A stretch of 64,000 nt of DNA. Origin: Variovorax sp. PBL-H6. GTDB taxonomy: Bacteria; Pseudomonadota; Gammaproteobacteria; Burkholderiales; Burkholderiaceae_C. Every line of letters begins with the position of its first letter. Position 1 is the stretch's first letter. The position numbers and the translations under genes are program-made. This document shows, piece after piece, positions 6,247-20,318 of the stretch. Under the pieces are notes generated by a model. It was not told where the DNA came from. It saw only the letters and a program-made list of their open reading frames with translations, and made no database searches. The DNA lies in NCBI RefSeq assembly GCF_901827155.1, contig NZ_LR594659.1, positions 1,116,001 through 1,180,000 on the forward strand. The letters run 5' to 3'.

Positions 6247-6885
6247 TCAGGCCTTCGCCTCGTAGCGCTTGCGCACGTCCTTGATCATCTCGACGAGGGC
6301 CTGGGGCACATCTTTGCCCTCCGCCTTGGCCCTGGCCTTGCAGTCTTCCCATAGCTTCAGGTCGGCGTAGCCCTTCTCGGTGTGGCGGTTCCACTCCACA
6401 TCGAGTGGTGTCGTGATTTCCATGCGGACGCCCGCAGGGTCGTGGAAGTAGATCGACAGGATCAGCCCCTTGTGGTCCGTCGGGCCGATGACCTTTACGC
6501 CTTGCGATGTCAGCCACTCATACCAGCGCAGTACCTCGGCACGGTCCTTCGCTTGCAGGGCGATGTGGTTGAAGAGGTCATACGCAGGATGGCTGGCCTT
6601 CGCCGGCGGCGGCACGCCGGGCGCTTCGAAGAAGGCCAGCGTCGAGCCGTCCTGCATGCGGAAGAAGATGTGGAAGTAGGGGATGTCGTCACCGGTGGAG
6701 GGGATGCTGTCGTCCAGGACCGTGCTCGCCAGCTCCATTCCCATGATGCGGGTGTAGAAGTCGGTCGTCGCGGCGGCATCGGGCGTCACCCAGGCGGCAT
6801 GATTCAGCATCATCGGCGTCAGGCCAGGATTGGGCGTCAGGGCCGCGGGCCTGACATTGGTCACTTCGGGCGCTGCAGTTTGCAT
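6247..6885 (-). CDS. VOC superfamily protein (copy 2, tandem paralogue)
   Basis: This 212-residue paralogue of the downstream VOC protein has the same predicted metal triad: His in LNHAAW, His in FNHIALQ and Glu in VRMEITT. The chosen start is MQTAAPEVTN, preceded by CCGGAGAATC; a longer frame exists upstream but would overlap the ferredoxin stop region. It ends 13 nt before copy 1. Keeping two copies beside each other suggests either different substrates in the same pathway or a hetero-oligomer. Neither has a recognisable second ligand-binding domain. Confidence 0.8.
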   Translation of the reverse strand: MQTAAPEVTNVRPAALTPNPGLTPMMLNHAAWVTPDAAATTDFYTRIMGMELASTVLDDSIPSTGDDIPYFHIFFRMQDGSTLAFFEAPGVPPPAKASHPAYDLFNHIALQAKDRAEVLRWYEWLTSQGVKVIGPTDHKGLILSIYFHDPAGVRMEITTPLDVEWNRHTEKGYADLKLWEDCKARAKAEGKDVPQALVEMIKDVRKRYEAKA

Positions 6886-6910: not shown

Positions 6911-7234
6911 TCAGACTTGAGTGTGGGCGATGCGGATGGCGATCCCGTCAAGGCTGTCGCTCATCATGATCTGACAAGACAGGCGGCTGTTCGCTTCACG
7001 CGGCGCTGCCGTGAAGTCCAGCATCTGGCTCTCGGTGTCGTCGGGCGCAGGCAGCAACGCGGCGAACGCCTCGTCCACGATGACATGACAGGTGGCGCAG
7101 CTCATGGCGCCGCCGCAGTCGCCGACGATGCCGTCGATGCCGTGGGCGGCGGCGCCCAGCATGAGGTTCTGGCCAACAGGCACTTCAACCTCTCTGCGCT
7201 CGCCGGTGGGATGGGTGTAAATGACGTGGGGCAT
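6911..7234 (-). CDS. [2Fe-2S] ferredoxin, putidaredoxin/adrenodoxin type
   Basis: The 107-residue ferredoxin has cluster ligands C40, C46 and C49 (CGGAMSCATC, C-x5-C-x2-C) and C87 (SRLSCQ), the pattern of vertebrate-type ferredoxins that feed class I cytochromes P450. The start is MPHVIYTHPTG. A GTG six codons upstream is possible but has no ribosome binding site, and GGAG sits only 2 nt from the ATG, too close to be a normal one. The natural partners are the P450 at 11516-12784 and the FAD reductase at 19035-20246, which carry the same promoter element. The predicted transcription start falls at or next to the ATG, so the message may be leaderless. Confidence 0.9.
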   Translation of the reverse strand: MPHVIYTHPTGERREVEVPVGQNLMLGAAAHGIDGIVGDCGGAMSCATCHVIVDEAFAALLPAPDDTESQMLDFTAAPREANSRLSCQIMMSDSLDGIAIRIAHTQV

Positions 7235-7240
7235 GGCTCC

Positions 7241-7285
7241 AATGTCTTCCACGTGTGCAGTGGTGTCAGTCCCCTCTGCGGGGAC
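7241..7285 (-). promoter_or_regulatory. Palindrome plus promoter elements, site A (ferredoxin unit)
   Basis: A perfect 6-bp-arm palindrome, GTCCCC-N5-GGGGAC on both strands, occupies 7269-7285. On the minus strand its proximal edge runs into CTGACA (5 of 6 with the -35 consensus). After 17 nt comes GACATT, a weak -10, at 7246-7241. The ferredoxin ATG begins exactly 34 nt after the palindrome. Equivalent sites are at 12823-12868, 15005-15049 and 20274-20318. An activator of the LuxR family would be centred near -43. Confidence 0.7.
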
Positions 7286-7336
7286 GTTACGGCTCGTGCC
7301 CGCCGCGCGAGTCGGCGTGAGGCCAGGAGCACAGCA

Positions 7337-7654
7337 CTAGCCAGGCTGCCGCGGCCCCAGTCCTTCGAAGATGTACAGGTGCGAGCGCGCCGAGTCGAGG
7401 CGGTAGCCGATGACGGCTTGGTAGTCGTCGGAGTGATAGAAAGCTTCCGCCCGCTGCAAGGACTCGAATTCCAGCAGCACGATGCGCTTGACGTTCCTGT
7501 CCCCCTCCTTGACGACGGGTGCGTCGCTCGCCGCCAGGAAAGCGGCACCATATTTCTCGAGGACCGGGCGCACGCGTGGCATGTACTCGTTGTAGAAATG
7601 CGCCGCGTCGACCACGTCCAGCTCCGCAAACAGGTAGCCTTTGCCTGCCGTCAT
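7337..7654 (-). CDS. DUF1330 domain-containing protein
   Basis: The 105-residue protein matches DUF1330, a small dimeric ferredoxin-like fold of unproven function. KGYLFAELDVVDAAHFYNEY is the family N-terminus, and RIVLLEFESLQRAEAFYHSDDYQ is the strongly conserved central stretch. It sits between the hydratase-like gene and the ferredoxin in a same-strand series, 28 nt downstream of the hydratase gene. The fold resembles dimeric alpha/beta-barrel monooxygenases and isomerases, so a role on an unstable pathway intermediate is possible, but nothing here proves it. Confidence 0.82.
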   Translation of the reverse strand: MTAGKGYLFAELDVVDAAHFYNEYMPRVRPVLEKYGAAFLAASDAPVVKEGDRNVKRIVLLEFESLQRAEAFYHSDDYQAVIGYRLDSARSHLYIFEGLGPRQPG

Positions 7655-7681
7655 CGAATCTCTCCTCGTGTCTTGGAAGGT

Positions 7682-8482
7682 TCAGTCGCTGAAGCTCGCG
7701 AAGACTGTCCCGCATGGCCCGAAACCGGCGACCACCGTGTCCCCTGGCAGAACTTCGAGGGGCACGGTGCATGCCCCCGTGGTCACCACCTGGCCCGAAT
7801 GCAATGTGATGCCCAGCGAGGACAACTCGTTGACGAGCCAGACGAGCGCGTCGAGGGGATTGCCGAGCACGGCCGCCCCGCTGCCTTCACGCAAATAGCT
7901 GCGTGCCGCGCCAGAGACTTGTCCCCGCACTTGGTGTTGCGAAAGATCCATGGTGCGCCAGTCGTTCGGCGCCGGGTCGCCCAGGATGAAGTCATGCGCG
8001 CATGCGTTGTCCGCAATGAGCTGTGCCTCACCCACGATGGTGAAGTCGACGAAGCGCGAGTCCGGGACCTCGATGGCAGGATGCAAGCTGGCGGTTGCCG
8101 CCAGCACCTCCTCCTTGGAGTAGGGCAGCCCCTTGGGCGGGAGGTCGCAACGCATCCGGAACGCGAACTCGGGCTCGGCGACCGCCATGCGGTTTCGTGC
8201 GAGCGACAGCCGTGACCCCGAGGCATGCACACGCTCGCGCAGCAGGCGGCCTGCGATCGGACCCTTCACGTTGATGTGGCGTTGACCTGCCGGACTTGTC
8301 GCCGCGATCTTCCACCCAAAGAGCGGGCCCGCCGAGCGCGCCTCGATCGCCGCCTGCACCTGGTACCCCTCGGCACGCGTGCTTGGGCGGCAATCACCAG
8401 ACAGTGAAGGGATCACCGTTCCGTGCTGCCATTCATTCCAGAGAATCTCACTCGCTTGCAGAAGCGCGTTCCCTCGATCCAT
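7682..8482 (-). CDS. 2-keto-4-pentenoate hydratase-like protein (MhpD/FAH family)
   Basis: The 266-residue product matches the MhpD/DmpE hydratase-decarboxylase group of the fumarylacetoacetate hydrolase superfamily. FGWKIAATSPAGQRHINVKGPIAGRLL is the family's active-site entrance, AEPEFAFRM carries the metal-binding acidic residues, and GNPLDALVWLVNEL is the conserved C-terminal helix. These enzymes act after meta ring cleavage, adding water to 2-hydroxydienoates. The neighbouring VOC proteins would fit as ring-cleavage enzymes. The start codon overlaps the upstream gene's stop by one base (TGATG), implying translational coupling. Confidence 0.82.
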   Translation of the reverse strand: MDRGNALLQASEILWNEWQHGTVIPSLSGDCRPSTRAEGYQVQAAIEARSAGPLFGWKIAATSPAGQRHINVKGPIAGRLLRERVHASGSRLSLARNRMAVAEPEFAFRMRCDLPPKGLPYSKEEVLAATASLHPAIEVPDSRFVDFTIVGEAQLIADNACAHDFILGDPAPNDWRTMDLSQHQVRGQVSGAARSYLREGSGAAVLGNPLDALVWLVNELSSLGITLHSGQVVTTGACTVPLEVLPGDTVVAGFGPCGTVFASFSD

Positions 8483-9432
8483 CAGAACTCCAGCACCAGC
8501 TTGCCGAAGTGCTCACTGCGTCGCATCGCCTCCAGAGCCTCCGCAGCCCGGTCGAACGCAAACCGACCCGCGATGGGGATGCGAGGCCCGCCATCCACCA
8601 GCATCTGACCAAGGTCGGCGAGCATGCGCGAATTGAGGCTCCGCACCTGTTCGACGGTGCGGGTGCGAAAGGTCACGCCGATGTACTCGAGCCGGCGAAG
8701 TGCGTGCAGGTTGAAGTCGAATGCTGCCGTGGCACCACCGAGTCGGCCCACGTTGACCAGACGGCCTTCGAGCGCGGCCGCCGCCATGCACTGGTTGAAC
8801 GCGGTTCCGGAGACGTTGTCCACGACGATGTCCGCTCCCTTGCCGTCGGTGGCATCCAGCACCTTGCGCGACCATCCTTCCTCGCTGCTGTCGATCGCTG
8901 CATCGCAGCCGAACGCCTCGAGTTTTCCGCGTCGTTCCGCGTTTCCGGAAGTTCCCAGGACGAGGCCAGCGCCAAGCGCCTTGGCGATCTGCATGCCGAT
9001 CAGTCCCATCACGGAAGCGGCGCCCTGCATGAGGACAGCGTGGCCGGGCCGGAGCCTTCCGCGCGTCACGAGGGCATCGTGCATCGTCTGCAGCCCGAGC
9101 ATGGCCGAGGCCGCTGCCGCCCAGTCGACCTCCGGCTTGGGGATGGGCGCCGCGCGGCCATGGTCCGTCACCACGTATTCCGCGTAGGCGGCGGACCCGG
9201 TGCCCATCACACGATCGCCGACGCTGAATGACTGGCACTCGGCGCCGACCTCGACCACCTCGCCGGACCATTCCATGCCGATGGTCTGGTCGGCGGGGTT
9301 CGCGAGCGAGTGAAGGTCGATGCGGTTGACGCCGACCGCACGCGTGCGCACGAGGATTTCGTTGGCTTTCGGGGTGGGCCGGGGTGTGTCCACGAGCCGA
9401 AGGCCGTTGGCGGTGGCGATGAAAGCTTTCAT
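8482..9432 (-). CDS. MDR family oxidoreductase, quinone oxidoreductase-like
   Basis: The 316-residue medium-chain dehydrogenase/reductase has GMEWSGEVVEVGAECQSFSVGDRVMG (catalytic-domain signature). Its nucleotide-binding region reads HAVLMQGAASVMGLIGMQIAKALGA, with an AASxxG variant of the Rossmann glycine motif. The cysteine and histidine ligands of zinc alcohol dehydrogenases are missing, so it is of the zinc-free NADPH:quinone oxidoreductase or enoyl reductase type. It is translationally coupled to the hydratase. A reductive step on an unsaturated ketone in the P450-initiated pathway is plausible but unproven. Confidence 0.82.
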   Translation of the reverse strand: MKAFIATANGLRLVDTPRPTPKANEILVRTRAVGVNRIDLHSLANPADQTIGMEWSGEVVEVGAECQSFSVGDRVMGTGSAAYAEYVVTDHGRAAPIPKPEVDWAAAASAMLGLQTMHDALVTRGRLRPGHAVLMQGAASVMGLIGMQIAKALGAGLVLGTSGNAERRGKLEAFGCDAAIDSSEEGWSRKVLDATDGKGADIVVDNVSGTAFNQCMAAAALEGRLVNVGRLGGATAAFDFNLHALRRLEYIGVTFRTRTVEQVRSLNSRMLADLGQMLVDGGPRIPIAGRFAFDRAAEALEAMRRSEHFGKLVLEF

Positions 9433-9453
9433 GAGCGTCCTGGTTGTCGGGTT

Positions 9454-10422
9454 TCAATCGAGGCGGATATTCAGTTCCTTGATCAACGGATGCCAGCGTG
9501 CGACTTCCTGCTTGATGAAGGTGCTGAATTGCTCCGGGGTGGTCGCAAACGGCTCCATCCCGAGGTCGGTGAATCGCTTCGAGATTTCGGGGCTCATGAC
9601 CACTTCGCGGATGTCGGAACTCAGGCGCGAGACGATGCCGGTGGGAGTGGATCGTGGAGCGGCCACGCCCACCCAAGGGTAGACCTCCACCCCTTCGATA
9701 CCCGATTCGGCCGCGGTCGGGACGTTGGGAAGTTGCGGAATGCGCTTCGGCGCCAGCACGGCCAGTGCCTTCAGCTTGCCCCCGAGGATCTGCTGGAGTG
9801 CGACGATCGAATCGATAGGCCCGATCGGCACCTGACCGCTGATGACATCCTGGATGGCGGCGCCTGCGCCCTTGTACTGGATGACCTGCGCCGGAAACCC
9901 GGCCTTGCGTCTGAGCAGTTCCATCGACAGCTGGTGGTATGTGCCGTTGCCAGGCGAGGCGTAGGGGATTCCGCCCGGCTCGCGCTTGGCATGCTCGATC
10001 AGGCCGCGCAAATCGTTGAACGGAGCCTGTGGGTGAGCCACGATCAGCATCGGCGCCCGGATCACCAGCGAGACCGGCGCGAAATCGGCGACAGGGTCGT
10101 AGGGCAGCTTCGAGAACAAGGCGCCGTTGAGGACGAGCGAGCCTCCCTCGCCCCCCAGCAATGTGTGACCGTCCGCGGCGGCCTTGGCGACCTGGCTCGC
10201 GGCAAGGATGCCGCTGGCGCCGGGCTTGTTGTCGATGATGACGGTCTGGCCGAGGCGCTGCGACAGGCCAGGCGCGATGTTTCGCATGACCACGTCGACG
10301 CCCCCGCCAGCCGCAAAGCCCACGACGACCGTGATGGGCTTGGTGGGATAGGTCTGGGCCCAGGCGGGCTGAATGGCCGCTGCCGCGGCCCCGATGGTGA
10401 ACTGCCGCCGAGTGATTTGCAT
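9454..10422 (-). CDS. Bug/TctC family periplasmic solute-binding receptor
   Basis: The 322-residue receptor has a Tat-like twin-arginine start (MQITRRQFTIGAAAAAIQPAWAQ). The mature start YPTKPITVVVGFAAGGGVD is the hallmark of Bug proteins. A strong AAAGGAGACAAC precedes the ATG. Bug receptors bind carboxylates, often aromatic, and may serve a TctAB permease encoded elsewhere; no TctA or TctB gene is in this window. A near copy just upstream is a pseudogene, so this is the only working receptor of the pair. Confidence 0.9.
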   Translation of the reverse strand: MQITRRQFTIGAAAAAIQPAWAQTYPTKPITVVVGFAAGGGVDVVMRNIAPGLSQRLGQTVIIDNKPGASGILAASQVAKAAADGHTLLGGEGGSLVLNGALFSKLPYDPVADFAPVSLVIRAPMLIVAHPQAPFNDLRGLIEHAKREPGGIPYASPGNGTYHQLSMELLRRKAGFPAQVIQYKGAGAAIQDVISGQVPIGPIDSIVALQQILGGKLKALAVLAPKRIPQLPNVPTAAESGIEGVEVYPWVGVAAPRSTPTGIVSRLSSDIREVVMSPEISKRFTDLGMEPFATTPEQFSTFIKQEVARWHPLIKELNIRLD

Positions 10423-10480
10423 GTTGTCTCCTTTGTGTGAACGGATGTCGACCAGCGCAGCGGTCTCGCGACGACCAGGC

Positions 10481-11412
10481 TCAATCGAGCCGGATGTTCA
10501 ATTCCTTGATGAGGGGATGCCAACGGGCGATCTCCTGCTTCACGAACGCGCCGAACTGCTCCGGTGTCGTTGCGAATGGCTCCATGCCCAGGCTGGTGAA
10601 TCGCTTGGAAATCTCCGGGCTGGTGACGACTTCGCGAATGTCGGAGCTGAGGCGCGAAACGATGTTCGCCGGCGTTCCGCGTGGAGCGGCAACGCCGACC
10701 CAAGGGGAGGCCTCCACGCCTTCGACACCGGCTTCTGCGGCCGTGGGGACGTTCGGCAGTTGCGCGATCCTCTTGGGAGCCAGCACCACGAGCGCTTTCA
10801 GCTTTCCGCCGAGAACCTGCTGCATCGCGACGATCGAATCGATGGCCCCGATCGACACCTGGCCGCTGACCACGTCCTGCACGGCAGGTCCGGCTCCCTT
10901 GTATTGGACCGCCCTGGCTTCGAACCCGGCGCGCCGCCTGAGCAACTCCATCGAGAGCTGGTGGTAGGTGCCGCTGCCTGGTGAGGCGTATGCGATACCG
11001 CCTTGCTCGCGCTTGGCATGGCTGATCAGTCCGCGCAAGTCGGAGAACGGAGCCTCTGGATGCGCGACGATGAGGATCGGCGCACGGATGACCATCGAGA
11101 CGAGCGCGAAATCCGCAGGGTCATACGGCAGCTTGGAGAACAGCGCACCGTTGAGGGCGAGGGCGCCCCCGTCGGTGCCGAACAAGGTGTGGCCTTCGGC
11201 AGCCGACTTGGCGACGTAGCTTGCGGCAAGGATGCCGCTTGCACCGGGCCGGTTTTCAACGATCACCGACTGGCCCAGCCGCTGTCCCAGGCCCGGCGCC
11301 AGATTTCGCATGACCACATCGACACCACCGCCAGCGCCGTAGCCGATGCCCAGGCCGGCGCGATGACGGATGCCGCGGTGCTGATAGCGAAATGACGTCG
11401 GGTGATATGCAT
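10481..11412 (-). pseudogene. Frameshifted Bug/TctC receptor, tandem paralogue
   Basis: Reading from the ATG at 11412, the signal peptide MHITRRHFAISTAASVIAP is intact, but directly after PAW the frame is lost. The true Bug reading resumes one frame over at GYGAGGGVDVVMRN and continues unbroken to the stop. Aligned with the intact neighbour, about 34 nt are missing at the signal-peptide junction, including the TYPTKPITVVV segment; 34 is not a multiple of 3. The ribosome binding site is also poor (CCGAAACAGATC) where the intact copy has AAGGAGA. An internal start at 11317 would give a cytoplasmic, truncated and presumably useless receptor. Confidence 0.82.
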
Positions 11413-11515
11413 GATCTGTTTCGGAGTGAATGGAAGGTGTCTCGGTGCCGAGCCTCGCGAGCAGTGTTGTCCTCGCGACACCGCCCCGGATGCATGGGCC
11501 CTGTGCCCGCAGGTG

Positions 11516-12784
11516 CTACCAAGTCACCAGGAGGCGCCGCAGCGCGCGAAATGAGGTATTGGGGGTGTACGGAAACGACTGATCCGGCACCAGCGCCAGA
11601 TCCGGCATGCGCGCAGCGACACGTCTCAGCATCACCTCCATCTCCAAGCGTGCGAGTGGCGCGCCGAGGCAGAAGTGGGTACCGGCGCCGAATGCCACTT
11701 GCTGCAGCACATTGCGACGGCCCGGCGTGAAAGCATCGGGTTCCGGGAATTGCTGGGGATCGTGATTGGCCGCTGCAAATTCCATCAGGATGCGGCTTCC
11801 GGCAGGGATCGCGACGCCATCGAGCACGACATCTTCCTTGGCCTGCCGGCGCCAGGCCTGCACGGGCGGATCGATCCGCAGTGATTCCTCCAGGACCGGC
11901 GCGATCGGCTGCTCACCCGCGCAGATTGCCTTCCAGAGCTTGCGGTCGGCCAGCACGGCCTTGAACATGTTGGCTGTGGCGCTGGAAGTCGTCTCGTGGC
12001 CTGCGAACAGCAGGTTGAAGGCAGTGGCGCCGATCTCGTGCATCGTCACCTCACTGCCGTCCTTGTGGGCACGCAGCAGGTCGCTGATGTAGTCGTCTTG
12101 AGGTGCCTCGGCCTTCTTGCGCACGAGGTCGAGGGCGTATCGATAGTAGGAGACAGTGCCGGTCGAAAGCTCTACCTGTTCGGCTTCCGTGGGCCGCCCC
12201 CACGTCATCACCACGCGGCTGGAAGCCCATTCCTTGACGCGTGCCACATCCTCGGCCGGCACCCCCAGCAACTGGAACAGGACCAGCGCGGGCACGTCCC
12301 ACGTGAGGCCGGCCACGAGGTCGGCGGGCTGTGAGCCGGCCAGCATGCGGTCGATGTAGGTGTCGACGGTGTTCTCCGTGAACGGCTTGAGCGACTGCAA
12401 GCGCTCGCGCGTGAGCGGCGCCCCAAAGAACGCTCGATACTTCGTGTGCGATGGCGGATCGTTGTTGACCAGCATCGGTGGCACGTCGAACCCTGACTCG
12501 GTGATGATGCTGCGTGCATGCGGACACAGCGGCGTCAGCGGATCGGATGCGATCAAGGCGGAGAACCGTTGCGTGTCGCGCAGGATGGCCTTCACGGTCT
12601 CGAAGCGCGTGACCACCCAGGAACCGATCTCGGGCGAGAAGAACACGGGCTCGCTCTCCCGCAGTTCCTTCAGAGTCGGGTAGGGATCGCGGACGTAGTC
12701 GGGGTCGAACGGGTTGAAGCGTTCGCTCGCCGGTGTGATCGGACCTTGCGCTTGCGAGGACGCGTCGGTGGATAGAAGCCGCAT
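11516..12784 (-). CDS. Cytochrome P450, bacterial class I
   Basis: The 422-residue P450 has the heme-binding loop FGAGTHFCLGAPLARLE with the thiolate ligand at C372, the I-helix oxygen-activation motif AGHETTSSA, and an ExxR in EESLR. It is soluble, with no membrane anchor, as in bacterial three-component systems. AAGGAGATTCC in front of the ATG of MRLLSTDAS fixes the start; an ATG eight codons upstream lacks such a site. Electron partners should be the ferredoxin at 6911-7234 and the reductase at 19035-20246. It probably starts the pathway by hydroxylating the growth substrate, which I cannot name. Confidence 0.92.
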   Translation of the reverse strand: MRLLSTDASSQAQGPITPASERFNPFDPDYVRDPYPTLKELRESEPVFFSPEIGSWVVTRFETVKAILRDTQRFSALIASDPLTPLCPHARSIITESGFDVPPMLVNNDPPSHTKYRAFFGAPLTRERLQSLKPFTENTVDTYIDRMLAGSQPADLVAGLTWDVPALVLFQLLGVPAEDVARVKEWASSRVVMTWGRPTEAEQVELSTGTVSYYRYALDLVRKKAEAPQDDYISDLLRAHKDGSEVTMHEIGATAFNLLFAGHETTSSATANMFKAVLADRKLWKAICAGEQPIAPVLEESLRIDPPVQAWRRQAKEDVVLDGVAIPAGSRILMEFAAANHDPQQFPEPDAFTPGRRNVLQQVAFGAGTHFCLGAPLARLEMEVMLRRVAARMPDLALVPDQSFPYTPNTSFRALRRLLVTW

Positions 12785-12822
12785 GGAATCTCCTTGGGCC
12801 GGCTTCATGCCGGTATGGGTGA

Positions 12823-12868
12823 AGCCTAGTGCCGGGCGGCGTTGCGGTCAGTCCCCCTCGAACGGGAC
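12823..12868 (-). promoter_or_regulatory. Palindrome plus promoter elements, site B (P450)
   Basis: An 18-bp dyad with GTCCC/GGGAC arms lies at 12851-12868. The minus strand then reads CTGACC across its edge (4 of 6 with the -35 consensus) and TAGGCT 23-28 nt on (12828-12823), the same place as TAGAGT in site C. The predicted start leaves a leader of about 32 nt with the strong AAGGAGA site. The spacer in the dyad is one base longer than in the other three sites. Confidence 0.6.
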
Positions 12869-12898
12869 GGTGGTCACGACGGTGAGCTCACATGAGCA

Positions 12899-12916
12899 AC
12901 GAGGCCAGCGCCTCGT
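12899..12916. terminator. Short hairpin downstream of the LuxR gene
   Basis: A 7-bp perfect stem, ACGAGGC-CAGC-GCCTCGT, lies about 80 nt after the stop of the LuxR-type gene and before the P450 promoter. It has no T tract, so intrinsic termination is uncertain. It could limit read-through from the regulator gene into the P450. Confidence 0.3.
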
Positions 12917-12995
12917 GGTCTTCCAGGAGGCGCTCGAGAGCGGGGCAACTGCATGGTTGGCCTTGCCAACGGCCAGTCCCCGGCGAGGGGTCAGG

Positions 12996-13844
12996 TCAGT
13001 GCAATGCGCCGGCAGGGGCGAGCTCGAAATGGTGCCCGCGCCACTCGCTCCAGTGCGCCAGGTACCACGTGAGCAGTTCGCGTTCGCTGCCGATCGCAAG
13101 TCGGTGATAGGCGCGCTTGCGATAGGTCTTCACCGTCTCTTCACTGACCGACAGGTCGAGCGCGATGCCCACAGAGGACATGCCATACAGGATGCGCGCG
13201 GCCACCTCGGCCTCTCGCCTGGGCAGCGCTTTCATCGCGTCGATGCAGTGCTCGATTTCATCGAGCGCCGTGAGAGCCTGTGCCACGTTGGGCCGCGTGC
13301 GCCGGATGTCTGCATGCTTGGCCAGCAGGGCCATGAGGAGCTGGGCAGAGTGGGCAACCTGCTCGATCGCCTCGTCGGCAAACGGGGCATTGGGGTCCGC
13401 GCGCACGATGCTCAGGCCGAAGTCGGCGTTCGTGGTGCGGCCACAAAGCAGCAAGCGGTCGCGGACGGTGGGAAACACGCTGGGTCGCAACGCGGCATAG
13501 CCGTCCGCGCTGAAATCCACGTGGATGATGCTGGGGCGAACTGCCTGCGCGCAGCGCTGCGCTTCAGCCATCGCCGGGTCGCGCTTCCACCAGCCCTGGT
13601 TGACATAGGTTTCCACACGGTCCCGCGCCGTCCGCGCGGGTTCGACGCAGCAGGCCGCGACTTCGTGCAGTTCGTCCTGCTGCAGCCGGAATGCGGCGAA
13701 GTGATCAGCACCGCAGAGTTCGTTCAAGAAGCGGGCAAGGGCCGGTCCGAATCCGTCTTCACCAATGGTGTCCACCAGAGTGGCGATGGCGCGGTCGTTT
13801 GTGGACATGGAGGCCATGCCCTGATGAATGGTCATGATCGTCAT
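12996..13844 (-). CDS. LuxR family transcriptional regulator
   Basis: The 282-residue protein ends in a LuxR-type helix-turn-helix (about residues 208-268): LPRREAEVAARILYGMSSVG followed by ALDLSVSEETVKTYRKRAYHRL. The recognition helix SEETVKTYRKRAYHRL is characteristic. The N-terminal 200 residues have no receiver Asp pocket and no autoinducer domain that I recognise, so it is probably a ligand-sensing regulator of catabolism. CAGGAGACAAGCG supports the start. Its position between the P450 and the IclR gene, and palindromes centred about 43 nt before predicted starts, make it the best candidate for the four-site regulon. Confidence 0.85.
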   Translation of the reverse strand: MTIMTIHQGMASMSTNDRAIATLVDTIGEDGFGPALARFLNELCGADHFAAFRLQQDELHEVAACCVEPARTARDRVETYVNQGWWKRDPAMAEAQRCAQAVRPSIIHVDFSADGYAALRPSVFPTVRDRLLLCGRTTNADFGLSIVRADPNAPFADEAIEQVAHSAQLLMALLAKHADIRRTRPNVAQALTALDEIEHCIDAMKALPRREAEVAARILYGMSSVGIALDLSVSEETVKTYRKRAYHRLAIGSERELLTWYLAHWSEWRGHHFELAPAGALH

Positions 13845-13923
13845 CGCTTGTCTCCTGAAGGGCCCACCGATGAGCTGCCAGCGCTCCGCGAAGTTCGCTG
13901 GCGTTTACCCACAGAGTAATCAT

Positions 13924-13940
13924 ATTACGCTTAACGTAAT
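13924..13940. promoter_or_regulatory. 17-bp inverted repeat upstream of the LuxR gene
   Basis: ATTACGCTTAACGTAAT has perfect 6-bp arms around a 5-bp spacer, the same 17-bp size as the GTCCC/GGGAC sites but different in sequence. It lies 80 nt before the LuxR start in an AT-richer stretch of a 248-nt gap, a likely operator or promoter region for that gene. Confidence 0.45.
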
Positions 13941-14092
13941 TGAAGCGATGAGGGAATACCCTTGACCGGAGGGCTCACTCGTTGGCTGTTTTGACCCGGG
14001 CCGGTGAGGCTCGGGCATGTACTTGCGTCTGCGCACGCCTTGGAGATTCGCCCCGACGCGCGTCACGTCGTGGCTGAGCTGCAGGTGTTTTT

Positions 14093-14914
14093 TCAGGAGG
14101 CGCCCATGCGCCTGGAGACCTGCTGTGCCTTCGTTCGCAATGCCCGTGCGATAGGCCCTTCCAGCTCGACGTCGATGACCCCGGCCGGCCCCATCACGGT
14201 GATCACCCCGGCAATGCCACCCGCATGGTCGAACACAGGCGCGGACAGGCCGTGCAGGCCAGGGTTGAGGTCTCCGCGCACCTGTGCCAAGCCATGCTCG
14301 CGCACATGCTGGAAGAGAGCTTCCATCTGTTGCTTCGTGAGTCGCGGAATCGTGGAAGGGCTGGCGCCCGGATGGCGCTCGCCGGCCAGCTCCCGGCGCA
14401 AGAAGGGCTCCGTGATGCTGCGCGGCATGTACGCTCCGAACACCCGGCCGGTCGATGACGACAGGAGCGGCATGACAGAGCCGGGACGGCCGCTGACGAT
14501 CAAGGCGTCGTTGGTCTCCTCGACGCGGACGAAGGTCGGGCCGCTGGCGCCCCAGATCGCAAGGCCGGCGGTGTAGCCCACCTCGTCGCGCAACTCGCCG
14601 AGCGCCTGCGCGGCCACGTTCACCACATGCAGGTGTCGGATTGCCGCGAGCCCCAGGCGCACCGCAAGCGGCCCGAGCCGGTAGCCGCCGGAAGCAGGGT
14701 CGCGCTCCGCCAGGCCGCCACGGCAGAAACTCACCAGATACCGATGTGCCTTCGGTGGCGGCATGTCGGCGCGCTCCGCCACCGTCTTGAGCATGAGCGG
14801 GGGGCCCATTTCCACCAGGGCGGTGAGCACTCGCAGTGCAGTATCGACCGCCTGCACTCCGCCGCTTTCGACATCGGCGTCGCTGTCGGCCACAGGTTCG
14901 TGCTCGCCTTTCAT
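14093..14914 (-). CDS. IclR family transcriptional regulator
   Basis: The 273-residue regulator has a winged helix near residues 28-95 (AVDTALRVLTALVEMGPPLMLKTVAERADMPPPKAHRYLVSF). An IclR effector domain follows, with GYTAGLAIWGASGPTFVRVEE, MPLLSSSTGRVFGAY and GLHGLSAPVFDHAGGIAGVITVMG. The start at MKGEHEPVADS is supported by CAGGAGCCCAGGGG. It is divergent from the hydrolase operon with 141 nt between starts, so it could also act on that promoter, which holds one of the four palindromes. Ligand unknown. Confidence 0.88.
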   Translation of the reverse strand: MKGEHEPVADSDADVESGGVQAVDTALRVLTALVEMGPPLMLKTVAERADMPPPKAHRYLVSFCRGGLAERDPASGGYRLGPLAVRLGLAAIRHLHVVNVAAQALGELRDEVGYTAGLAIWGASGPTFVRVEETNDALIVSGRPGSVMPLLSSSTGRVFGAYMPRSITEPFLRRELAGERHPGASPSTIPRLTKQQMEALFQHVREHGLAQVRGDLNPGLHGLSAPVFDHAGGIAGVITVMGPAGVIDVELEGPIARALRTKAQQVSRRMGAS

Positions 14915-15004
14915 CCCCTGGGCTCCTGTACTTCCATGCCTCGAAGGAAACGAGCCTAACACGCTGTTCATTGCTGACTGTCCGGCGGAGGCGGCGCGGT
15001 GTCT

Positions 15005-15049
15005 GTCCCCTCGTGGGGGACTGCGGGCTGGTCGGCTCGCCCCTAGAGT
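15005..15049 (+). promoter_or_regulatory. Palindrome plus promoter elements, site C (hydrolase operon)
   Basis: GTCCCCTCGTGGGGGAC (15005-15021) is a perfect 6-bp-arm palindrome. TAGAGT at 15044-15049 matches 4 of 6 bases of the -10 consensus and sits 23-28 nt after the palindrome, as in the other sites. The ATG follows exactly 34 nt after the palindrome, the same distance as at site A. No Shine-Dalgarno sequence precedes the ATG, consistent with a leaderless message. Confidence 0.7.
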
Positions 15050-15055
15050 GACCCC

Positions 15056-16237
15056 ATGACGCAAGCATTCGACATCCAGACCGAGTGGGTGCACCTCCAG
15101 TACGAGGAGCGCTCCACTTTCACCGAAACCTATGGTTTCGCCGGCAACCAGGGAGCGGTGAACCTGGAAGGCATCCGCTTCCGTCCCGAGGGACACGCCT
15201 CGGACACGCTCATGGTGTTCATGCATCCCGCATCCACGCTGCAGTTGTTGCCCGTCCCTCGTGCGATGGCCGCAACGGGTGCGCACGTGCTGTGTGCGGG
15301 CAGCCGCTATCAGCGCAACGACGCGGCACTCATCATGGAAAAGGTGCTGCTGGACCTGGGCGCCTACATACGGCATGCCAGGCAGGTGTGGGGCTACAAG
15401 TACGTGGTCCTCGTTGGCTGGAGCGGCGGTGGCGCGCTCGCCGTGAGCTACCAGGCGGAAGCGGAGAACCCCAGCTTGACGCACACGCCCGCGGGCGACC
15501 CTGTCACTGTGAAGGGTGCAGGCCTTATCCCGGCGGACGCCATCATCTACCAGGCCGCCCACCTGTCGCGCGCGCATCTGCTGGCCGAGGCGATCGATCC
15601 TTCCGTTCGCGACGAAGCAAATCCGGACGATCGCGACGTCGAACTCGACATCTATGATCCGCGCAACCCCAACCAGCCGCCGTACTCGCAGGCGTTCATG
15701 GCGCACTACCGCGCGGCGCAGCTTGCGCGCATGCGGCGCATCACGGCGTGGGCGAAGGCCAGGCTGCAGGAACTGAAGGAACGCAACACCGGCGAGATGG
15801 AGCGGCCGTTCATCGTCCATCGCACGTTGGCCGATCCGCGGTTTCTCGATCCTTCGCTCGACCCGAACGACCGCAGGCCGCGCTGGTGCTACATGGGCAA
15901 TCCGGAGACGGTGAACACGGGCCCTGTGGGGCTGGCGCGATTCACCACCTTGCGCTCCTGGCTCTCGCAATGGTCGCTCGACGACTCCTGCGGCAACGGA
16001 CTGGAGAATGCGAAGCGCATGCGAGCCCCGCTGCTGGTGATCGAGAACAGCGCGGACGACGCGGTACCGCAGACGCATCCCAAGATGCTGTTCGAAGCCG
16101 CGGCCTCCGCCGACAAGACTTTCCGCGTCGTCAATGGCGCGACACACTACTACGCAGGGCAGCCCGAGCTGCTGAAGGTCGCCACCGCCCTGATCCGGGG
16201 CTGGCTGATCGAGCGCAAGCTGCTTGAAGCAGCCTGA
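15056..16237 (+). CDS. Alpha/beta hydrolase
   Basis: The 393-residue protein has an alpha/beta hydrolase core with nucleophile elbow GWSGGG (S123). The likely catalytic acid is in ENSADDAVP, and the likely His is in NGATHYYAGQPELL near the C-terminus. An insertion of about 150 residues between strand and lid regions (LTHTPAGDP to LQELKERNTG) makes it longer than simple esterases. It is the first gene of the unit with the thiolase and CoA ligase and follows site C. It may open an ester, lactone or diketone formed after P450 attack. No ribosome binding site is visible before the ATG. Confidence 0.8.
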   Translation: MTQAFDIQTEWVHLQYEERSTFTETYGFAGNQGAVNLEGIRFRPEGHASDTLMVFMHPASTLQLLPVPRAMAATGAHVLCAGSRYQRNDAALIMEKVLLDLGAYIRHARQVWGYKYVVLVGWSGGGALAVSYQAEAENPSLTHTPAGDPVTVKGAGLIPADAIIYQAAHLSRAHLLAEAIDPSVRDEANPDDRDVELDIYDPRNPNQPPYSQAFMAHYRAAQLARMRRITAWAKARLQELKERNTGEMERPFIVHRTLADPRFLDPSLDPNDRRPRWCYMGNPETVNTGPVGLARFTTLRSWLSQWSLDDSCGNGLENAKRMRAPLLVIENSADDAVPQTHPKMLFEAAASADKTFRVVNGATHYYAGQPELLKVATALIRGWLIERKLLEAA

Positions 16238-16266
16238 TCTCTCCGCATTCGTCACAAAGGACCATC

Positions 16267-17433
16267 ATGAGCAACGCATACATCGTCGGCTGGGGCCACA
16301 CGCCCTTCGGCAAACTCGACAAGCTGGACCTGGAGCAGATGATCCGCGATGCGGTGCAGCCCGCGCTCGACAGCGCAGGACTCGAGGCCAAGGACATCGA
16401 CGGCATCTTCGTGGGCCACTTCAACGCCGGCTTCGTGGGCCAGGACTTCACGGCTTCCCTGCCGGCCGTGGCCATCCCCGAGTTCCGTCACACGCCCGCG
16501 GTGCGCGCCGAGAACGCCTGCGCCACCGGCTCCGCCGCGATCTGGGCAGCACTGGATGCAATGGCGGCCGGGCGCATGAAGCGCACGCTGGTGATCGGCA
16601 TGGAGAAGATGAACGAGCTCACCACCCCGCAAGTGGCGGCCACGTTGATCAAGTGCTCCTACGTGAAGGAAGAAGGCACTGATCCTGCCGGCTTCGCAGG
16701 GATCTTCGGCGGCATCGCCAGCAAGTATTTCGAGCGCTTCGGCGACCAGTCCGATGCGCTGGCGGCGATCTCGGCCAAGAACCACAGCAACGGGATGCAC
16801 AACCCGTACGCGCACATGCGGCGTGACTTCGGGTTCGACTTCTGCCGCACGCCGTCGGAGAAGAACCCGTTCGTGTCGGGCCCTCTCAAGCGCTCGGATT
16901 GTTCGCTCGTTTCCGATGGCGCCGCTGCGCTGGTGCTTTCGACCGAGCCGCTGCGTGGCGCAAAGGTCGCGCCGGTCCGCTGGCGTTCGCGCACGCACGT
17001 CAACGATTTCCTGCCGATGTCGCGGCGCGACCCGACGCGTTTCGAAGGCGCAGCGCTGGCGTGGCAAAGGGGACTCGCCGCTGCGCAAATGGACCTGGGA
17101 GATCTGTCTTTCGTCGAGACGCACGACTGCTTCACGATCGCCGAGATGCTGGAGTACGAGGCAATGGGCCTGGCACCGCACGGGCAAGGCGCACGTGTCA
17201 TCCTCGATGGCGTCACGCGCAAGGATGGCAGGCTGCCGGTCAACCCGTCGGGCGGCCTCAAGTCCAAGGGCCATCCCATCGGCGCTACCGGCGTCTCGCA
17301 GCACGTGATGGCGGCGATGCAGCTGTCGGGCACGGCTGGGGGCATGCAGGTGCCCAATGCCAGTGCGGGCGCCGTGTTCAACATGGGAGGCTCCGCGGTC
17401 GCCAGCTACCTGAGCCTCCTGGAGTCGGCGTGA
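16267..17433 (+). CDS. Thiolase family protein (SCP-x/acetyl-CoA acetyltransferase-like)
   Basis: The 388-residue protein has thiolase features: the acyl-accepting cysteine C85 in ENACATGSAA, VETHDCFTIAE with the catalytic His, and GGLKSKGHPIGATG near the C-terminus. It belongs to the SCP-x-like branch, which includes thiolytic enzymes and some lyases acting on branched or steroid side chains. AAAGGACCATC precedes the start. It ends overlapping the CoA ligase gene, so activation and thiolytic cleavage of a carboxylic intermediate are probably coupled. The substrate is unknown. Confidence 0.88.
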   Translation: MSNAYIVGWGHTPFGKLDKLDLEQMIRDAVQPALDSAGLEAKDIDGIFVGHFNAGFVGQDFTASLPAVAIPEFRHTPAVRAENACATGSAAIWAALDAMAAGRMKRTLVIGMEKMNELTTPQVAATLIKCSYVKEEGTDPAGFAGIFGGIASKYFERFGDQSDALAAISAKNHSNGMHNPYAHMRRDFGFDFCRTPSEKNPFVSGPLKRSDCSLVSDGAAALVLSTEPLRGAKVAPVRWRSRTHVNDFLPMSRRDPTRFEGAALAWQRGLAAAQMDLGDLSFVETHDCFTIAEMLEYEAMGLAPHGQGARVILDGVTRKDGRLPVNPSGGLKSKGHPIGATGVSQHVMAAMQLSGTAGGMQVPNASAGAVFNMGGSAVASYLSLLESA

Positions 17434-19010
17434 ACGCAGCGCAGGTCATGAACCTCGGGCAGCTGCTCACGCAGACCGCCCGCTTGTTTCCGGGCCGTCC
17501 CGCATTGATCCGGGGGGAACAGACCTGGACCTGGGCCGAAGTCGAGCAGCGCGTGGCCGCGATGACGGATGCTCTGCGTGGGCTGGGCCTTCGCAAGGGT
17601 GATCGCATCCTGGTCCAGTCGCGCAACAACGTGCAGCTGTTCGAGAGCTGCTGGGTGGCGTTCCGCCTCGGTTGCGTCTGGGTGCCCACGAATTTCCGGC
17701 TCACGCCGCCCGAGGTCGCCTACCTGGGCGCCTCCAGCGGCGCAAGCGCAATGATCGTGGAGGACGCGTTTGCCGGCCATGTCGACGCGGTGTGTGCCGA
17801 AGCGCCTGCGCTGCAGCACGTCATCACGATCGGCGAACCGCGTCCCGGCGAGCACAGCTATGAAGCGCTCGTTCGCAATCACCTGGGCGCGCAAGGCGCT
17901 CACGAAACGGTTGCGTATGACGACCCGCTCTGGTTCTTCTACACCTCGGGAACGACGGGCCGCCCGAAGGCCGGTGTGCTGACGCACGGCCAGATGGCGT
18001 TCGTGGTGACCAATCACCTCGCCGACCTCATTCCCGGGACGAGCGAGCGCGATTGCTCCATCGTGGTGGCGCCGCTATCGCATGGCGCGGGCATCCACGC
18101 CTTGCTGAACGTGGCTCGAGGGGCAGCTTCCGTGCTGCTGCCTGGCGAGAAGCTGGACGCCGAGATCTTCTGGCAAGCGGTCCAGAAGCATCGCGTGACC
18201 AACCTGTTCACGGTCCCGACGATCGTCAAGATGCTCGTGGAGCATCCCGCCGTCGATCGCTACGACCACTCCAGTCTGCGATACATGATCTACGCGGGAG
18301 CGCCCATGTATCGCGCCGACCAGAAGCTCGCGCTGCAGAAGCTGGGCAAGGTGCTGGTGCAGTATTTCGGGCTCGGCGAGGTCACGGGCAATATCACCGT
18401 TCTGTCGCCCGACATGCATTCGGCCGATGACGACGACCCGAACGCGAACATCGGCTCGTGCGGGCGCCCTCGCACCGGCATGGAAGTCGCCATCCTCGAC
18501 GCGGAGCTCGAGCCGGTGCCCGTGCGTGAAGTGGGTGAGATCTGCGTGCGCGGTCCTGCAGTTTTCTCCGGCTATCACGACAACCCCGATGCGACGGCAA
18601 AGGCGCTTCGCGGCGGCTGGTTCCACACGGGCGACCTCGGAAGGCTGGACGAACGTGGTCTGCTGTACATCACCGGCCGCGAGTCGGACATGTACATCTC
18701 AGGGGGCTCCAACGTCTATCCGCGTGAAGTGGAAGAGGTGTTGCTGACGCATCCTGCCGTGGCGGAGGTTGCGGTCCTTGGCGTGCCGGATCCGAAATGG
18801 GGCGAAGTCGGTGTTGCGGTCGTGGTCCCTCGTGGAGGCGCGCAGCTCGATGTCGACGCGCTCCTGGCGCATCTGGAAAACCGTTGTGCGCGCTATCGGT
18901 GGCCGCACCATGTGTTCTTCTGGGACGCCCTGCCGAAGTCGGGCTACGGGAAGATCGTCAAGAAGGACATTCGGCAACTGCTCTTCGAGCGCGGGGATCT
19001 GCAGGCGTGA
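17430..19010 (+). CDS. AMP-dependent acyl-CoA synthetase (ANL family)
   Basis: The 526-residue ligase has the AMP-binding P-loop FYTSGTTGRPKAG, the A5 segment VQYFGLGEVTGN, the hinge motif GWFHTGDLGRLDERGLLYITGRESDMYISGG and a C-terminal Lys in PKSGYGKIVKK. The start is a GTG that overlaps the thiolase stop (GTGA) and has GGAG 5 nt before it; an ATG six codons further in is the alternative. It forms a CoA ester from a carboxylic acid and ATP for the thiolase encoded just before it. It ends 24 nt before the convergent reductase gene. Confidence 0.9.
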   Translation: MNAAQVMNLGQLLTQTARLFPGRPALIRGEQTWTWAEVEQRVAAMTDALRGLGLRKGDRILVQSRNNVQLFESCWVAFRLGCVWVPTNFRLTPPEVAYLGASSGASAMIVEDAFAGHVDAVCAEAPALQHVITIGEPRPGEHSYEALVRNHLGAQGAHETVAYDDPLWFFYTSGTTGRPKAGVLTHGQMAFVVTNHLADLIPGTSERDCSIVVAPLSHGAGIHALLNVARGAASVLLPGEKLDAEIFWQAVQKHRVTNLFTVPTIVKMLVEHPAVDRYDHSSLRYMIYAGAPMYRADQKLALQKLGKVLVQYFGLGEVTGNITVLSPDMHSADDDDPNANIGSCGRPRTGMEVAILDAELEPVPVREVGEICVRGPAVFSGYHDNPDATAKALRGGWFHTGDLGRLDERGLLYITGRESDMYISGGSNVYPREVEEVLLTHPAVAEVAVLGVPDPKWGEVGVAVVVPRGGAQLDVDALLAHLENRCARYRWPHHVFFWDALPKSGYGKIVKKDIRQLLFERGDLQA

Positions 19011-19034
19011 ATGCGCGGCGGCGTACCAGCCGGA

Positions 19035-20246
19035 TCAAAGCATCTTCAGCGTGAATCCGGGCTCGCGCACGTTGTCCGGCGAAACACGGGTTTGCCTGGC
19101 GAGAAGCCTGCGTGCCAGCATATGGTCTGCTGGCCGGTTCACCGATTCCACGGCGCACAGCATGCCGTCTGAAATACACAGGACGGAAAAATTCCCGGCC
19201 GTCACATCGCCGGTCACCACGCATTCATCGGCGTCGCCGCGCAGCCCGGCGATCTGGAGCTTCAGCCTCCCTTGGTCGCTCCAGAACCATGGCACGGCCT
19301 CGTACGGGAGCGCGGCATGTCCGGCGATGCGGGCCGCCACCGCGCGCGCCTGATCGGTTGCGTTCTGGACTGACTCGAGCCGAACTCGCGGGCCACCATC
19401 GCGCCTCGGAAACGATGCGACGTCGCCGATGGCCGAGACTCGTGGATCGGCGGTGCGCAACATGGCGTCCACGACAATTCCGTTGTCGACGGCAAGGCCG
19501 GCTTCCATTGCGAGCTCGACCCGTGGAATCGCGCCAATCCCGACAAGGACGAGGTCCGCGGGAATCCGCTCTCCACGCGTGGTGACGACCGCCGCGACCT
19601 TTCCATCTTCTCCTTCGAGCCGTTCCACGCCGGTCTGCAGCAGCAGCTTCGTGCCAAGCGCGCGATGCGCGTTGGTAAACGCGACGGCGCATTCCGGAGA
19701 CAACACGCGCGCCATCGGACGATCGGCGATGTCCACGACGGTGACATCGTGGCCGAGCAGGCGCGCGGAAGCAGCAAATTCGAGGCCGATGAAGCCCGCG
19801 CCGATCACGGCGACTCTCGTGCAGCCCGCAAGTGCCGCGAGGAGCCGATCGGCGTCGTCCAGTGTTTGCAGGGGCAGCACCCCGGCAAGTCCTGCACCCG
19901 CGACCGGCAGCGCCCGAGGTCGCGAGCCGGTCGCGATGACCAGGTAGTCGTAGGCCAGCGACTCACCATTGCCGAGTGTGACCCGTTGTGCACCGCGGTC
20001 GATGTGCTCTGCGGCGTGAGAGATGAGCGTGATCCGGTGCTCGCTGAAGAAGGCCTCTGCACGAAAGGCCAGATCGGCGACGCAGGTCTTGCCGAGCAGG
20101 TACGCCTTTGAAAGAGGGGGGCGCTGATAGGGCAATCCGCGCTCCTCGGAGACAAGGGACACGTCGCCCGTGAAACCTTGCTGTCGCAAGGCGGCTGCGC
20201 ATTGGAAGCCGGCGTGCCCGGCTCCGAGTATCACGACGCTCTGCAT
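19035..20246 (-). CDS. FAD-dependent ferredoxin reductase (putidaredoxin reductase-like)
   Basis: The 403-residue flavoprotein has an FAD-binding GAGHAG (8-13), LPYQRPPLSKAYL as in rubredoxin and putidaredoxin reductases, an NADH-binding VIGAGFIGLEFAAS, and SAIGDVASFP for the FAD ribityl site. It should pass electrons from NAD(P)H to the [2Fe-2S] ferredoxin at 6911-7234 for the P450. It is separated from those partners by up to 12 kb and two regulators but carries the same promoter palindrome (site D). It is convergent with the CoA ligase operon. Confidence 0.9.
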   Translation of the reverse strand: MQSVVILGAGHAGFQCAAALRQQGFTGDVSLVSEERGLPYQRPPLSKAYLLGKTCVADLAFRAEAFFSEHRITLISHAAEHIDRGAQRVTLGNGESLAYDYLVIATGSRPRALPVAGAGLAGVLPLQTLDDADRLLAALAGCTRVAVIGAGFIGLEFAASARLLGHDVTVVDIADRPMARVLSPECAVAFTNAHRALGTKLLLQTGVERLEGEDGKVAAVVTTRGERIPADLVLVGIGAIPRVELAMEAGLAVDNGIVVDAMLRTADPRVSAIGDVASFPRRDGGPRVRLESVQNATDQARAVAARIAGHAALPYEAVPWFWSDQGRLKLQIAGLRGDADECVVTGDVTAGNFSVLCISDGMLCAVESVNRPADHMLARRLLARQTRVSPDNVREPGFTLKML

Positions 20247-20273
20247 GGCTCTCTACCTCGCTGTGAGAGGTCC

Positions 20274-20318
20274 ATGTTCTTCTGAACTTGCCCGGACGTA
20301 TGTCCCGCTGCGGGGGAC
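20274..20318 (-). promoter_or_regulatory. Palindrome plus weak promoter elements, site D (ferredoxin reductase)
   Basis: GTCCCGCTGCGGGGGAC (20302-20318) has perfect 5-bp arms and the same 17-bp size as sites A and C. On the minus strand GAACAT lies 23-28 nt beyond it (20279-20274); the A and final T are shared by all four sites. The -35 region is poor. The reductase ATG follows about 21 nt after the predicted start. Confidence 0.55.

Follow-up and report, generated by a model that had tools for sequence, protein, structure and literature searches.

Palindromes at a fixed distance from the −10 element are the likely operators of a putative LuxR solo at a cytochrome P450 locus of Variovorax sp. 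PBL-H6

In a stretch of 64,000 nucleotides from Variovorax sp. PBL-H6 (contig NZ_LR594659.1, positions 1,116,001 to 1,180,000; here referred to as the window), four copies of a GTCCC/GGGAC palindrome precede separately placed genes for a ferredoxin, a cytochrome P450, an alpha/beta hydrolase and a ferredoxin reductase, with a luxR-type and an iclR-type gene lying among them. Which of the two regulators recognizes the palindromes, and what would it do there? Here, we present a comparative analysis of these sites in Variovorax and its relatives. We are confident, short of certainty, that the palindrome is the operator of the LuxR-type protein, a putative LuxR solo that would act as a class II activator of scattered P450-chain and catabolic units and probably of iclR, with an inducer that is probably a pathway compound and with many of the resulting mRNAs predicted to be leaderless. 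The sites are numbered 1 to 4 by position; all coordinates are listed in Table 1.

The initial annotation described four palindromes of 17-18 bp, each followed by a −10-like hexamer at nucleotides 23-28 from its proximal edge with A in position 2 and T in position 6. We recovered an exact GTCCC-N7/N8-GGGAC palindrome in all four cases, and the hexamers of sites 1 to 4 (GACATT, TAGGCT, TAGAGT and GAACAT) all have A2 and T6; the spacer is exactly 22 nt at every site, a tighter geometry than had been claimed. The −35-like sequences CTGACA and CTGACC indeed cross the proximal edge at sites 1 and 2, and the same place reads CATACG at site 4, CTGCGG on the plus side of site 3 and CAGACA on its minus side. 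If the hexamer is taken as −12 to −7, the palindrome would span −51 (or −52) to −35 with its centre at −43; lux-type palindromes are centred near −42.

The GTCCC/GGGAC pattern is not common as such in this genome, because GTCCC-N5-N8-GGGAC occurs at 18 places in 6.87 Mb compared with 43 for the backward control. The N7/N8 form accounts for six of the 18 places, of which four lie within these 13 kb, and GTCCC-N7/8-GGGAC-[AT][GT]AC has four matches in the whole genome, namely the four window sites. The genome-wide scan that had been proposed as a check, therefore, returned no flood of unrelated matches. The other two exact N7/N8 palindromes (C2:206714 and C2:594124) were rejected as members; neither has a side with A2 and T6 at 22 nt, and C2:594124 lies where long reading frames overlap one another. 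Using a scoring model trained on 67 sites from other genomes, with the PBL-H6 genome excluded, we found that the four palindromes score 23.3-35.4 on their best side, compared with 18.5 for the best of 20 Markov-1 resampled windows. The same model detected no further member in the window beyond these four and a degenerate fifth copy directly downstream of luxR; the next-best match, at 18718 on the minus strand, scores 11.3, which is inside the resampled-window range. That the initial annotation noticed this sequence at no other gene start in the window agrees with the model scan, except for the degenerate copy and for site 3, which also faces iclR.

Site 3 had been assigned to the hydrolase promoter. 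The predicted hexamer TAGAGT is indeed present at 22 nt; however, the minus side, with GACAGT toward iclR, matches the model better (34.6 versus 15.8). Comamonadaceae bacterium 2FH (G044; locus L027, 17879-17895) likewise has a palindrome flanked by this pair of hexamers, and a −10 on both sides occurs in six of the 78 palindromes that have at least one such −10. We suggest from these sequences that site 3 is bidirectional and that iclR itself is a likely target of its minus-side promoter. An in-frame ATG located 5 nt past the iclR-facing hexamer (14914-14976) would lengthen IclR by 19 residues and would be leaderless too, and AGGAG stands before the shorter iclR start.

The spacing is conserved in relatives. 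From fetched stretches of 17 genomes or plasmids, we assembled a set of 87 exact palindromes, including a few distant from luxR, and oriented them by [AT][GT]AC after the edge, a rule chosen after looking at the sites that makes no use of the hexamer. Among the 71 palindromes that can be oriented (13 genomes), NANNNT occurs at 22 nt in 57 (53/67 without the PBL-H6 genome), and no other offset between 12 and 35 has it more than five times; T6 is present in 69, A2 in 57 and A4 in 55. The 17-bp (33) and 18-bp (38) palindromes have the same distance from the proximal edge to the hexamer, which argues that the proximal half-site is locked to the polymerase while the distal one shifts by a base. By its geometry, the site has the class II placement, overlapping the −35 position and being fixed relative to the −10 (22 nt in 57/71).

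Which regulator goes with these sites was addressed by co-occurrence. Among 101 Variovorax genomes, 12 have a match to the LuxR protein at E≤1e-20; one of them, G817, was left out as a carrier, its match being a general LuxR with 26% identity. Of the remaining 11, 10 hold 2-9 matches to the oriented pattern, while among the other 90 genomes, seven hold one match, 83 none and none two or more (Fisher's test for two or more oriented sites, 5.7e-13; 10/12 if G817 is counted as a carrier). Similarly, in a family sample, the [AT]GAC form is matched in 5/5 genomes with the LuxR at E≤1e-25 versus 21/394 others. G044 has relatives of the LuxR with 79% and 76% identity, and 11 of the 15 exact N7/N8 palindromes of its genome lie on the luxR contig. 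No [AT]GAC-pattern match accompanies the ten weaker relatives in the family sample (28-31% identity), which lie on the other side of the LuxR tree. An order-wide search of 399 genomes for the LuxR at E≤1e-20 returned only the PBL-H6 genome.

The same comparison bears on the possibility that the IclR-type protein recognizes the palindromes and acts as a repressor or an activator of the same units. iclR adjoins luxR in the window, in both G044 copies and in V. paradoxus VAI-C, and site 3 faces iclR; in the second G044 copy (L026, 5901-6728), the IclR match is split over two frames. However, no IclR relative (E≤1e-10) comes closer than ~130 kb in G129, G018 and G300, each of which has a palindrome not more than ~9 kb from its LuxR gene, and the Sphingobium clusters have no IclR within 20 kb in the annotation tables (PLSDB tables, which are incomplete). 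In G018 and G300, the LuxR has shrunk to 135-138 aa, essentially the HTH (L030, 9952-10359; L031, 9534-9950), and the adjoining catabolic cluster still holds a palindrome, followed by TGAC and by TCAAAT at 22 nt, between its porin and AMP-binding ligase genes. Moreover, an inverted repeat, TTACG-N5-CGTAA, lies upstream of luxR and recurs at the same place before both G044 luxR copies (L026, 5844; L027, 16124); the pattern was not found at seven other luxR-bearing loci. This repeat is a better candidate for the IclR operator than the palindromes. Because the LuxR gene tracks the sites across genomes and the IclR gene does not, the protein that binds the palindromes is most likely the LuxR-type product; we rejected IclR in this role on co-occurrence and regard it as improbable.

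The LuxR tree points in the same direction. In a tree of 32 LuxRs labelled by whether a site was counted at the luxR locus, all 17 site-bearing proteins fall within a group of 22 that a branch with 100/100 support sets apart. Five members of this group have no counted site, namely those of G845, C. metallidurans CH34, B. plantarii, B. arboris and G879; the last carries this label owing to the shortness of its luxR contig, and six oriented sites lie on its other contigs. The label requires four changes on the tree, a number as low as which was obtained in 0/500 shuffles. The G845 genome lacks oriented sites, and its LuxR has TFRKLAY in place of the TYRKRAY shared by 12 of the 17 site-bearing LuxRs; this single case fits a pairing of LuxR and site. 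Co-occurrence, conserved spacing and tree placement together support the annotated idea of a LuxR-type activator regulon centred near −43.

The protein itself is consistent with this role. The GerE helix-turn-helix (HTH) domain (PF00196) covers residues 207-259 with 38.9 bits compared with a curated cut-off of 23.5. A Pfam scan of the LuxR at E≤0.001 returned only GerE and Sigma70_r4_2, with no autoinducer-binding family in the N-terminal domain; in contrast to quorum-sensing receptors, the protein is thus not assigned to this family by sequence. Its N-terminal domain nevertheless models as an autoinducer-binding fold, as assigned by VIA-align for the modelled domain. In TraR numbering, the invariant ligand-pocket residues are W57, Y61, D70, P71 and W85. 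Counted by spacing alone, Y80 (78/79), D89 (79/79) and P90 (74/79) retain the spacing of Y61, D70 and P71, and the places of W57 and W85 are held by R76 and P104 in the PBL-H6 protein. Based on this model, we suggest that the protein is a LuxR solo that probably senses a pathway compound. In total, 438 proteins match it at E≤1e-8, of which only part belongs to this clade.

We propose that a LuxR dimer would bind GTCCCC-N5/6-GGGGAC such that the proximal half-site ends at about −35, would contact RNA polymerase from the class II position (centre −43) and would drive promoters whose own −35 and −10 elements are weak. The separately placed units would then be co-induced, i.e., the P450 chain (ferredoxin, P450 and reductase) together with CoA-linked catabolism (hydrolase, thiolase and ligase) and probably iclR. 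The N-terminal domain, with its autoinducer-binding-like fold, would probably bind a substrate or intermediate of the pathway as the inducer. The description of a P450 regulon captures the P450 chain and the catabolic units of the window and is too narrow for relatives, in which the targets go well beyond P450 genes.

The LuxR protein could, alternatively, occupy the sites to repress transcription and be released by the inducer. Bound to the proximal arm, which overlaps the −35 position, a protein could stand in the way of the polymerase, and a LuxR-family repressor of a P450 gene, NarL on cyp108j1, has been reported in Rhodococcus (PMC7037279). However, the native −10 elements have the weakness expected of activator-dependent promoters (on average, 3.14 of 6 positions match the consensus, and the hexamer begins with G or C in 48 of the 71 oriented sites), base-exact spacing in 57/71 sites would be unnecessary for repression, and the same spacing is kept on both sides of six palindromes. 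We therefore hold repression to be no likelier than recognition by IclR and favor activation by the LuxR solo. Read by eye, each palindrome could also form a GC stem of 5-6 bp with a loop of 5-8 nt and act as an RNA hairpin or terminator; yet no T run follows the palindromes, their position upstream of the −10 at a fixed distance places them outside the transcript that they start, and they co-occur with one LuxR clade, making this reading extremely unlikely.

Several observations weigh against activation by the LuxR solo through these palindromes. Sixteen of the 87 palindromes cannot be oriented, including all six of the Sphingobium plasmids; in pMI1 and pTK2, WKAC is present in 0/6 sites, although one gene-facing side per site starts with TA at the hexamer place. 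The plus side of site 3 by itself scores within the range of resampled windows and rests on its conservation in G044 and G857. The four changes of the site label count against the pairing, as do several long branches in the tree, whose inner order is unsure. Nor does the pairing span the whole clade, because no exact palindrome was found within 12 kb of the LuxR relatives with 32-34% identity in CH34, B. plantarii and B. arboris, and no palindrome that can be oriented was found in G845 (45% identity; genome 69% complete). G129, with 33-34% identity, has only one oriented site. The TCAAAT hexamer of G018 and G300 lacks A2, and the porin ATG is at least 259 nt downstream. Finally, in family genomes without this LuxR, 6/24 [AT]GAC palindromes show NANNNT at 22 nt, which is above expectation. 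These AGAC palindromes (L042, L046, L049, L051, L057 and L059) occupy mixed contexts, and those in L051 and L059 adjoin frames that by eye resemble response regulators; they are possibly operators of another NarL-type protein.

The position of the start codons extends the geometry. We examined 174 palindrome sides and counted a −10 at 22 nt if it had T6 and A2, or T6 and at least 3/6 matches, giving 84 sides. In 36 of these, an ATG begins 6 nt (30) or 7 nt (6) past the hexamer, compared with an average of 1.3 at other offsets; resampled sequence yields 2.8 on average and 7 at most. Because 6-7 nt is the usual distance from the hexamer to the transcription start, the A of the ATG would be +1, and the ATG placement predicts leaderless mRNAs. 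The gap lacks GGAG, GAGG and AGGA in 33 of the 36 leaderless-type sides; the PBL-H6 ferredoxin is among the three that have one. An open frame of at least 85 aa follows in 28 of the 36. Ten of these 28 were scanned and comprise a zinc dehydrogenase, an ABC permease, two P450s, two ferredoxin reductases, an SDR, a hydrolase, an Asp/Glu-racemase and a SnoaL-family protein, for which a later start is possible; most of the remaining frames are 107-aa ferredoxins. In the window, the ferredoxin and the hydrolase are predicted to be leaderless, while the P450 and the reductase start farther downstream and have a ribosome site.

Five of the 36 sides open a frame of 13-17 aa that overlaps or precedes a hemerythrin-like frame, and three more look like decayed starts. 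The short frames stand at the predicted +1 in another frame than the hemerythrin-like start (L080, 17508; L084, 18177; L092, 14084; L095, 12945; L103, 5221); they precede or overlap this start in 5/6 genomes examined, and G876 lacks the ATG. At two G044 sites (L026, 8806 and 12911), an intact site and −10 are accompanied by a short ferredoxin-like start of 17-20 aa and now precede a glyoxalase-superfamily gene and a [2Fe-2S] small-subunit-type gene; these promoters seem to have been copied together with a ferredoxin start and then reused. It is an evenly balanced proposition that site, −10 and start codon form a rigid module that measures 51-52 nt between the distal palindrome edge and the ATG, with the position of the activator setting +1 on the A of the ATG and so coupling activation to leaderless translation. 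The rigid geometry would be the reason why many target ATGs fall on +1. Such a module would stand before unrelated families (ferredoxin, hydrolase, SDR, ABC permease, P450, reductase, zinc dehydrogenase and Asp/Glu-racemase-like), sometimes leaving decayed ferredoxin-like starts, and would work in both directions from one palindrome.

Table 1. Features of the predicted regulon in the window
Feature	Position	Strand	Remarks
Site 1 palindrome GTCCCCGCAGAGGGGAC	7269..7285	-	5' of ferredoxin unit; similar site before ferredoxin genes in relatives
-10-like GACATT, site 1	7241..7246	-	22 nt from edge; ATG at 7234 follows by 6 nt
Site 2 palindrome GTCCCGTTCGAGGGGGAC	12851..12868	-	18 bp; 5' of P450 unit
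-10-like TAGGCT, site 2	12823..12828	-	
Site 3 palindrome GTCCCCTCGTGGGGGAC	15005..15021	both	-10 at 22 nt on each side; G044 L027 alike
-10-like TAGAGT, site 3	15044..15049	+	toward hydrolase; 6 nt to ATG at 15056
-10-like GACAGT, site 3	14977..14982	-	toward iclR; CAGACA at 15000-15005
Site 4 palindrome GTCCCCCGCAGCGGGAC	20302..20318	-	5' of ferredoxin reductase
-10-like GAACAT, site 4	20274..20279	-	
Degenerate fifth copy GACCCCTCGCCGGGGAC	12976..12992	-	hexamer place TGCAGT; directly downstream of luxR
Inverted repeat TTACG-N5-CGTAA	13925..13939	both	upstream of luxR; extra GTAAT just before repeat
Possible hemerythrin gene-start remnant ALERLLEDHEALASLL	12894..12941	-	tblastn E 0.005 in 500-base subject, weak alone
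LuxR-type regulator	12996..13844	-	proposed activator; 282 aa; autoinducer-binding-like fold (model), GerE HTH
IclR-type regulator	14093..14914	-	probable target of site 3 minus-side promoter
Putidaredoxin-like [2Fe-2S] ferredoxin	6911..7234	-	predicted leaderless; 6-nt gap holds GGAG
Glyoxalase/dioxygenase-superfamily genes (two)	5556-6233, 6247-6885	-	downstream of ferredoxin, same strand
Cytochrome P450	11516..12784	-	AAGGAG before ATG; ATG 38 nt past hexamer; best PDB matches include P450 RhF
TctC-type receptors (two)	10481-11311, 9454-10422	-	presumed P450 unit
Zinc dehydrogenase	8482-9432	-	presumed P450 unit
Hydratase-like protein	7682-8482	-	presumed P450 unit; under NCBIfam cut-offs
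DUF1330 gene	7337-7654	-	end of presumed P450 unit (rest after P450, 7337..11311)
Alpha/beta hydrolase	15056..16237	+	predicted leaderless
Thiolase	16267-17433	+	after hydrolase
AMP-binding ligase	17430-19010	+	after thiolase
FAD-dependent ferredoxin reductase	19035..20246	-	ATG 27 nt past hexamer; GAGG present

Among the genes of the window, the ferredoxin start is secure, because residues 1-106 align with residues 1-106 of PDB 4ltu. The matches of the P450 are scattered over many enzymes and point to no single pathway substrate. The gene after luxR encodes a hemerythrin in both G044 and V. paradoxus VAI-C, and VAI-C has a site between the two genes; because the window retains only a short stretch resembling a hemerythrin start, the degenerate copy looks like the decayed promoter of a lost hemerythrin gene.

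Our literature search, made mostly at the title and abstract level of open-access papers, found no description of this motif, regulator or regulon. LuxR-type class II activation, LuxR solos and GGGG-binding LuxR-type proteins such as RamA (PMC4847777) are known already; the literature searched yielded no account of the operator, its pairing with this LuxR-solo clade, the clade itself or the start-codon geometry. A LuxR-solo clade paired with an exact operator and a target set makes the ligand of the regulator and the degraded compound testable. Leaderless mRNAs seem to be rare in this class of bacteria. In the transcription start site map reported for B. cenocepacia, transcription start and start codon coincide for 72 genes and lie within 10 nt of each other for another 42, and 24 of these transcripts are tRNAs (PMC4603805). 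If the leaderless prediction is true, the sites are a compact natural case of an activator position setting the translation start and offer dozens of promoters for the study of leaderless translation in Betaproteobacteria.

DevR and OsdR are response regulators. Their boxes are likewise GGG-containing palindromes of related regulators, e.g., the predicted OsdR site GGGGACGATCGTCCCC (PMC5069765), with the arms in the opposite order (GGGGAC...GTCCCC) and a shorter spacer than in the window sites. RamA of Corynebacterium glutamicum is likewise a LuxR-type regulator of carbon metabolism acting on GGGG/CCCC motifs, and its target bca is reported to be leaderless, as are ~33% of the mRNAs in its phylum (PMC4847777). 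However, RamA motifs are described as short single G/C runs, unlike one fixed palindrome, RamA represses bca, and the organism belongs to another phylum (PMC4847777). NarL of Rhodococcus sp. P14 is a LuxR-family protein that likewise controls a P450 gene for aromatic breakdown, cyp108j1, through a palindrome; it differs in being a repressor and in its motif, GAAAGTTG-CAACTTTC, whose arms occupy −96 to −88 and −30 to −22 (PMC7037279). CrbR of Pseudomonas is a LuxR-family activator whose inverted repeat, the ACTU motif, was likewise found by comparing promoters; it is described as a two-component regulator of acetate genes, and matches such as TACTACCATCGTCGAAT are unrelated in sequence (PMC5715377). 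LuxR solos are reported to bind 20-bp palindromes in the promoters of the genes that they regulate, and the typical lux box is 20 bp long with CT(N12)AG (PMC4338825); the sites analysed here differ, being 17-18 bp with GTCCCC-N5/6-GGGGAC and outer GT...AC. As in class II LuxR-type systems (LuxR, LasR, TraR and solos), the window site overlaps the −35 position, and the predicted regulator has a GerE HTH and a modelled ligand-domain fold.

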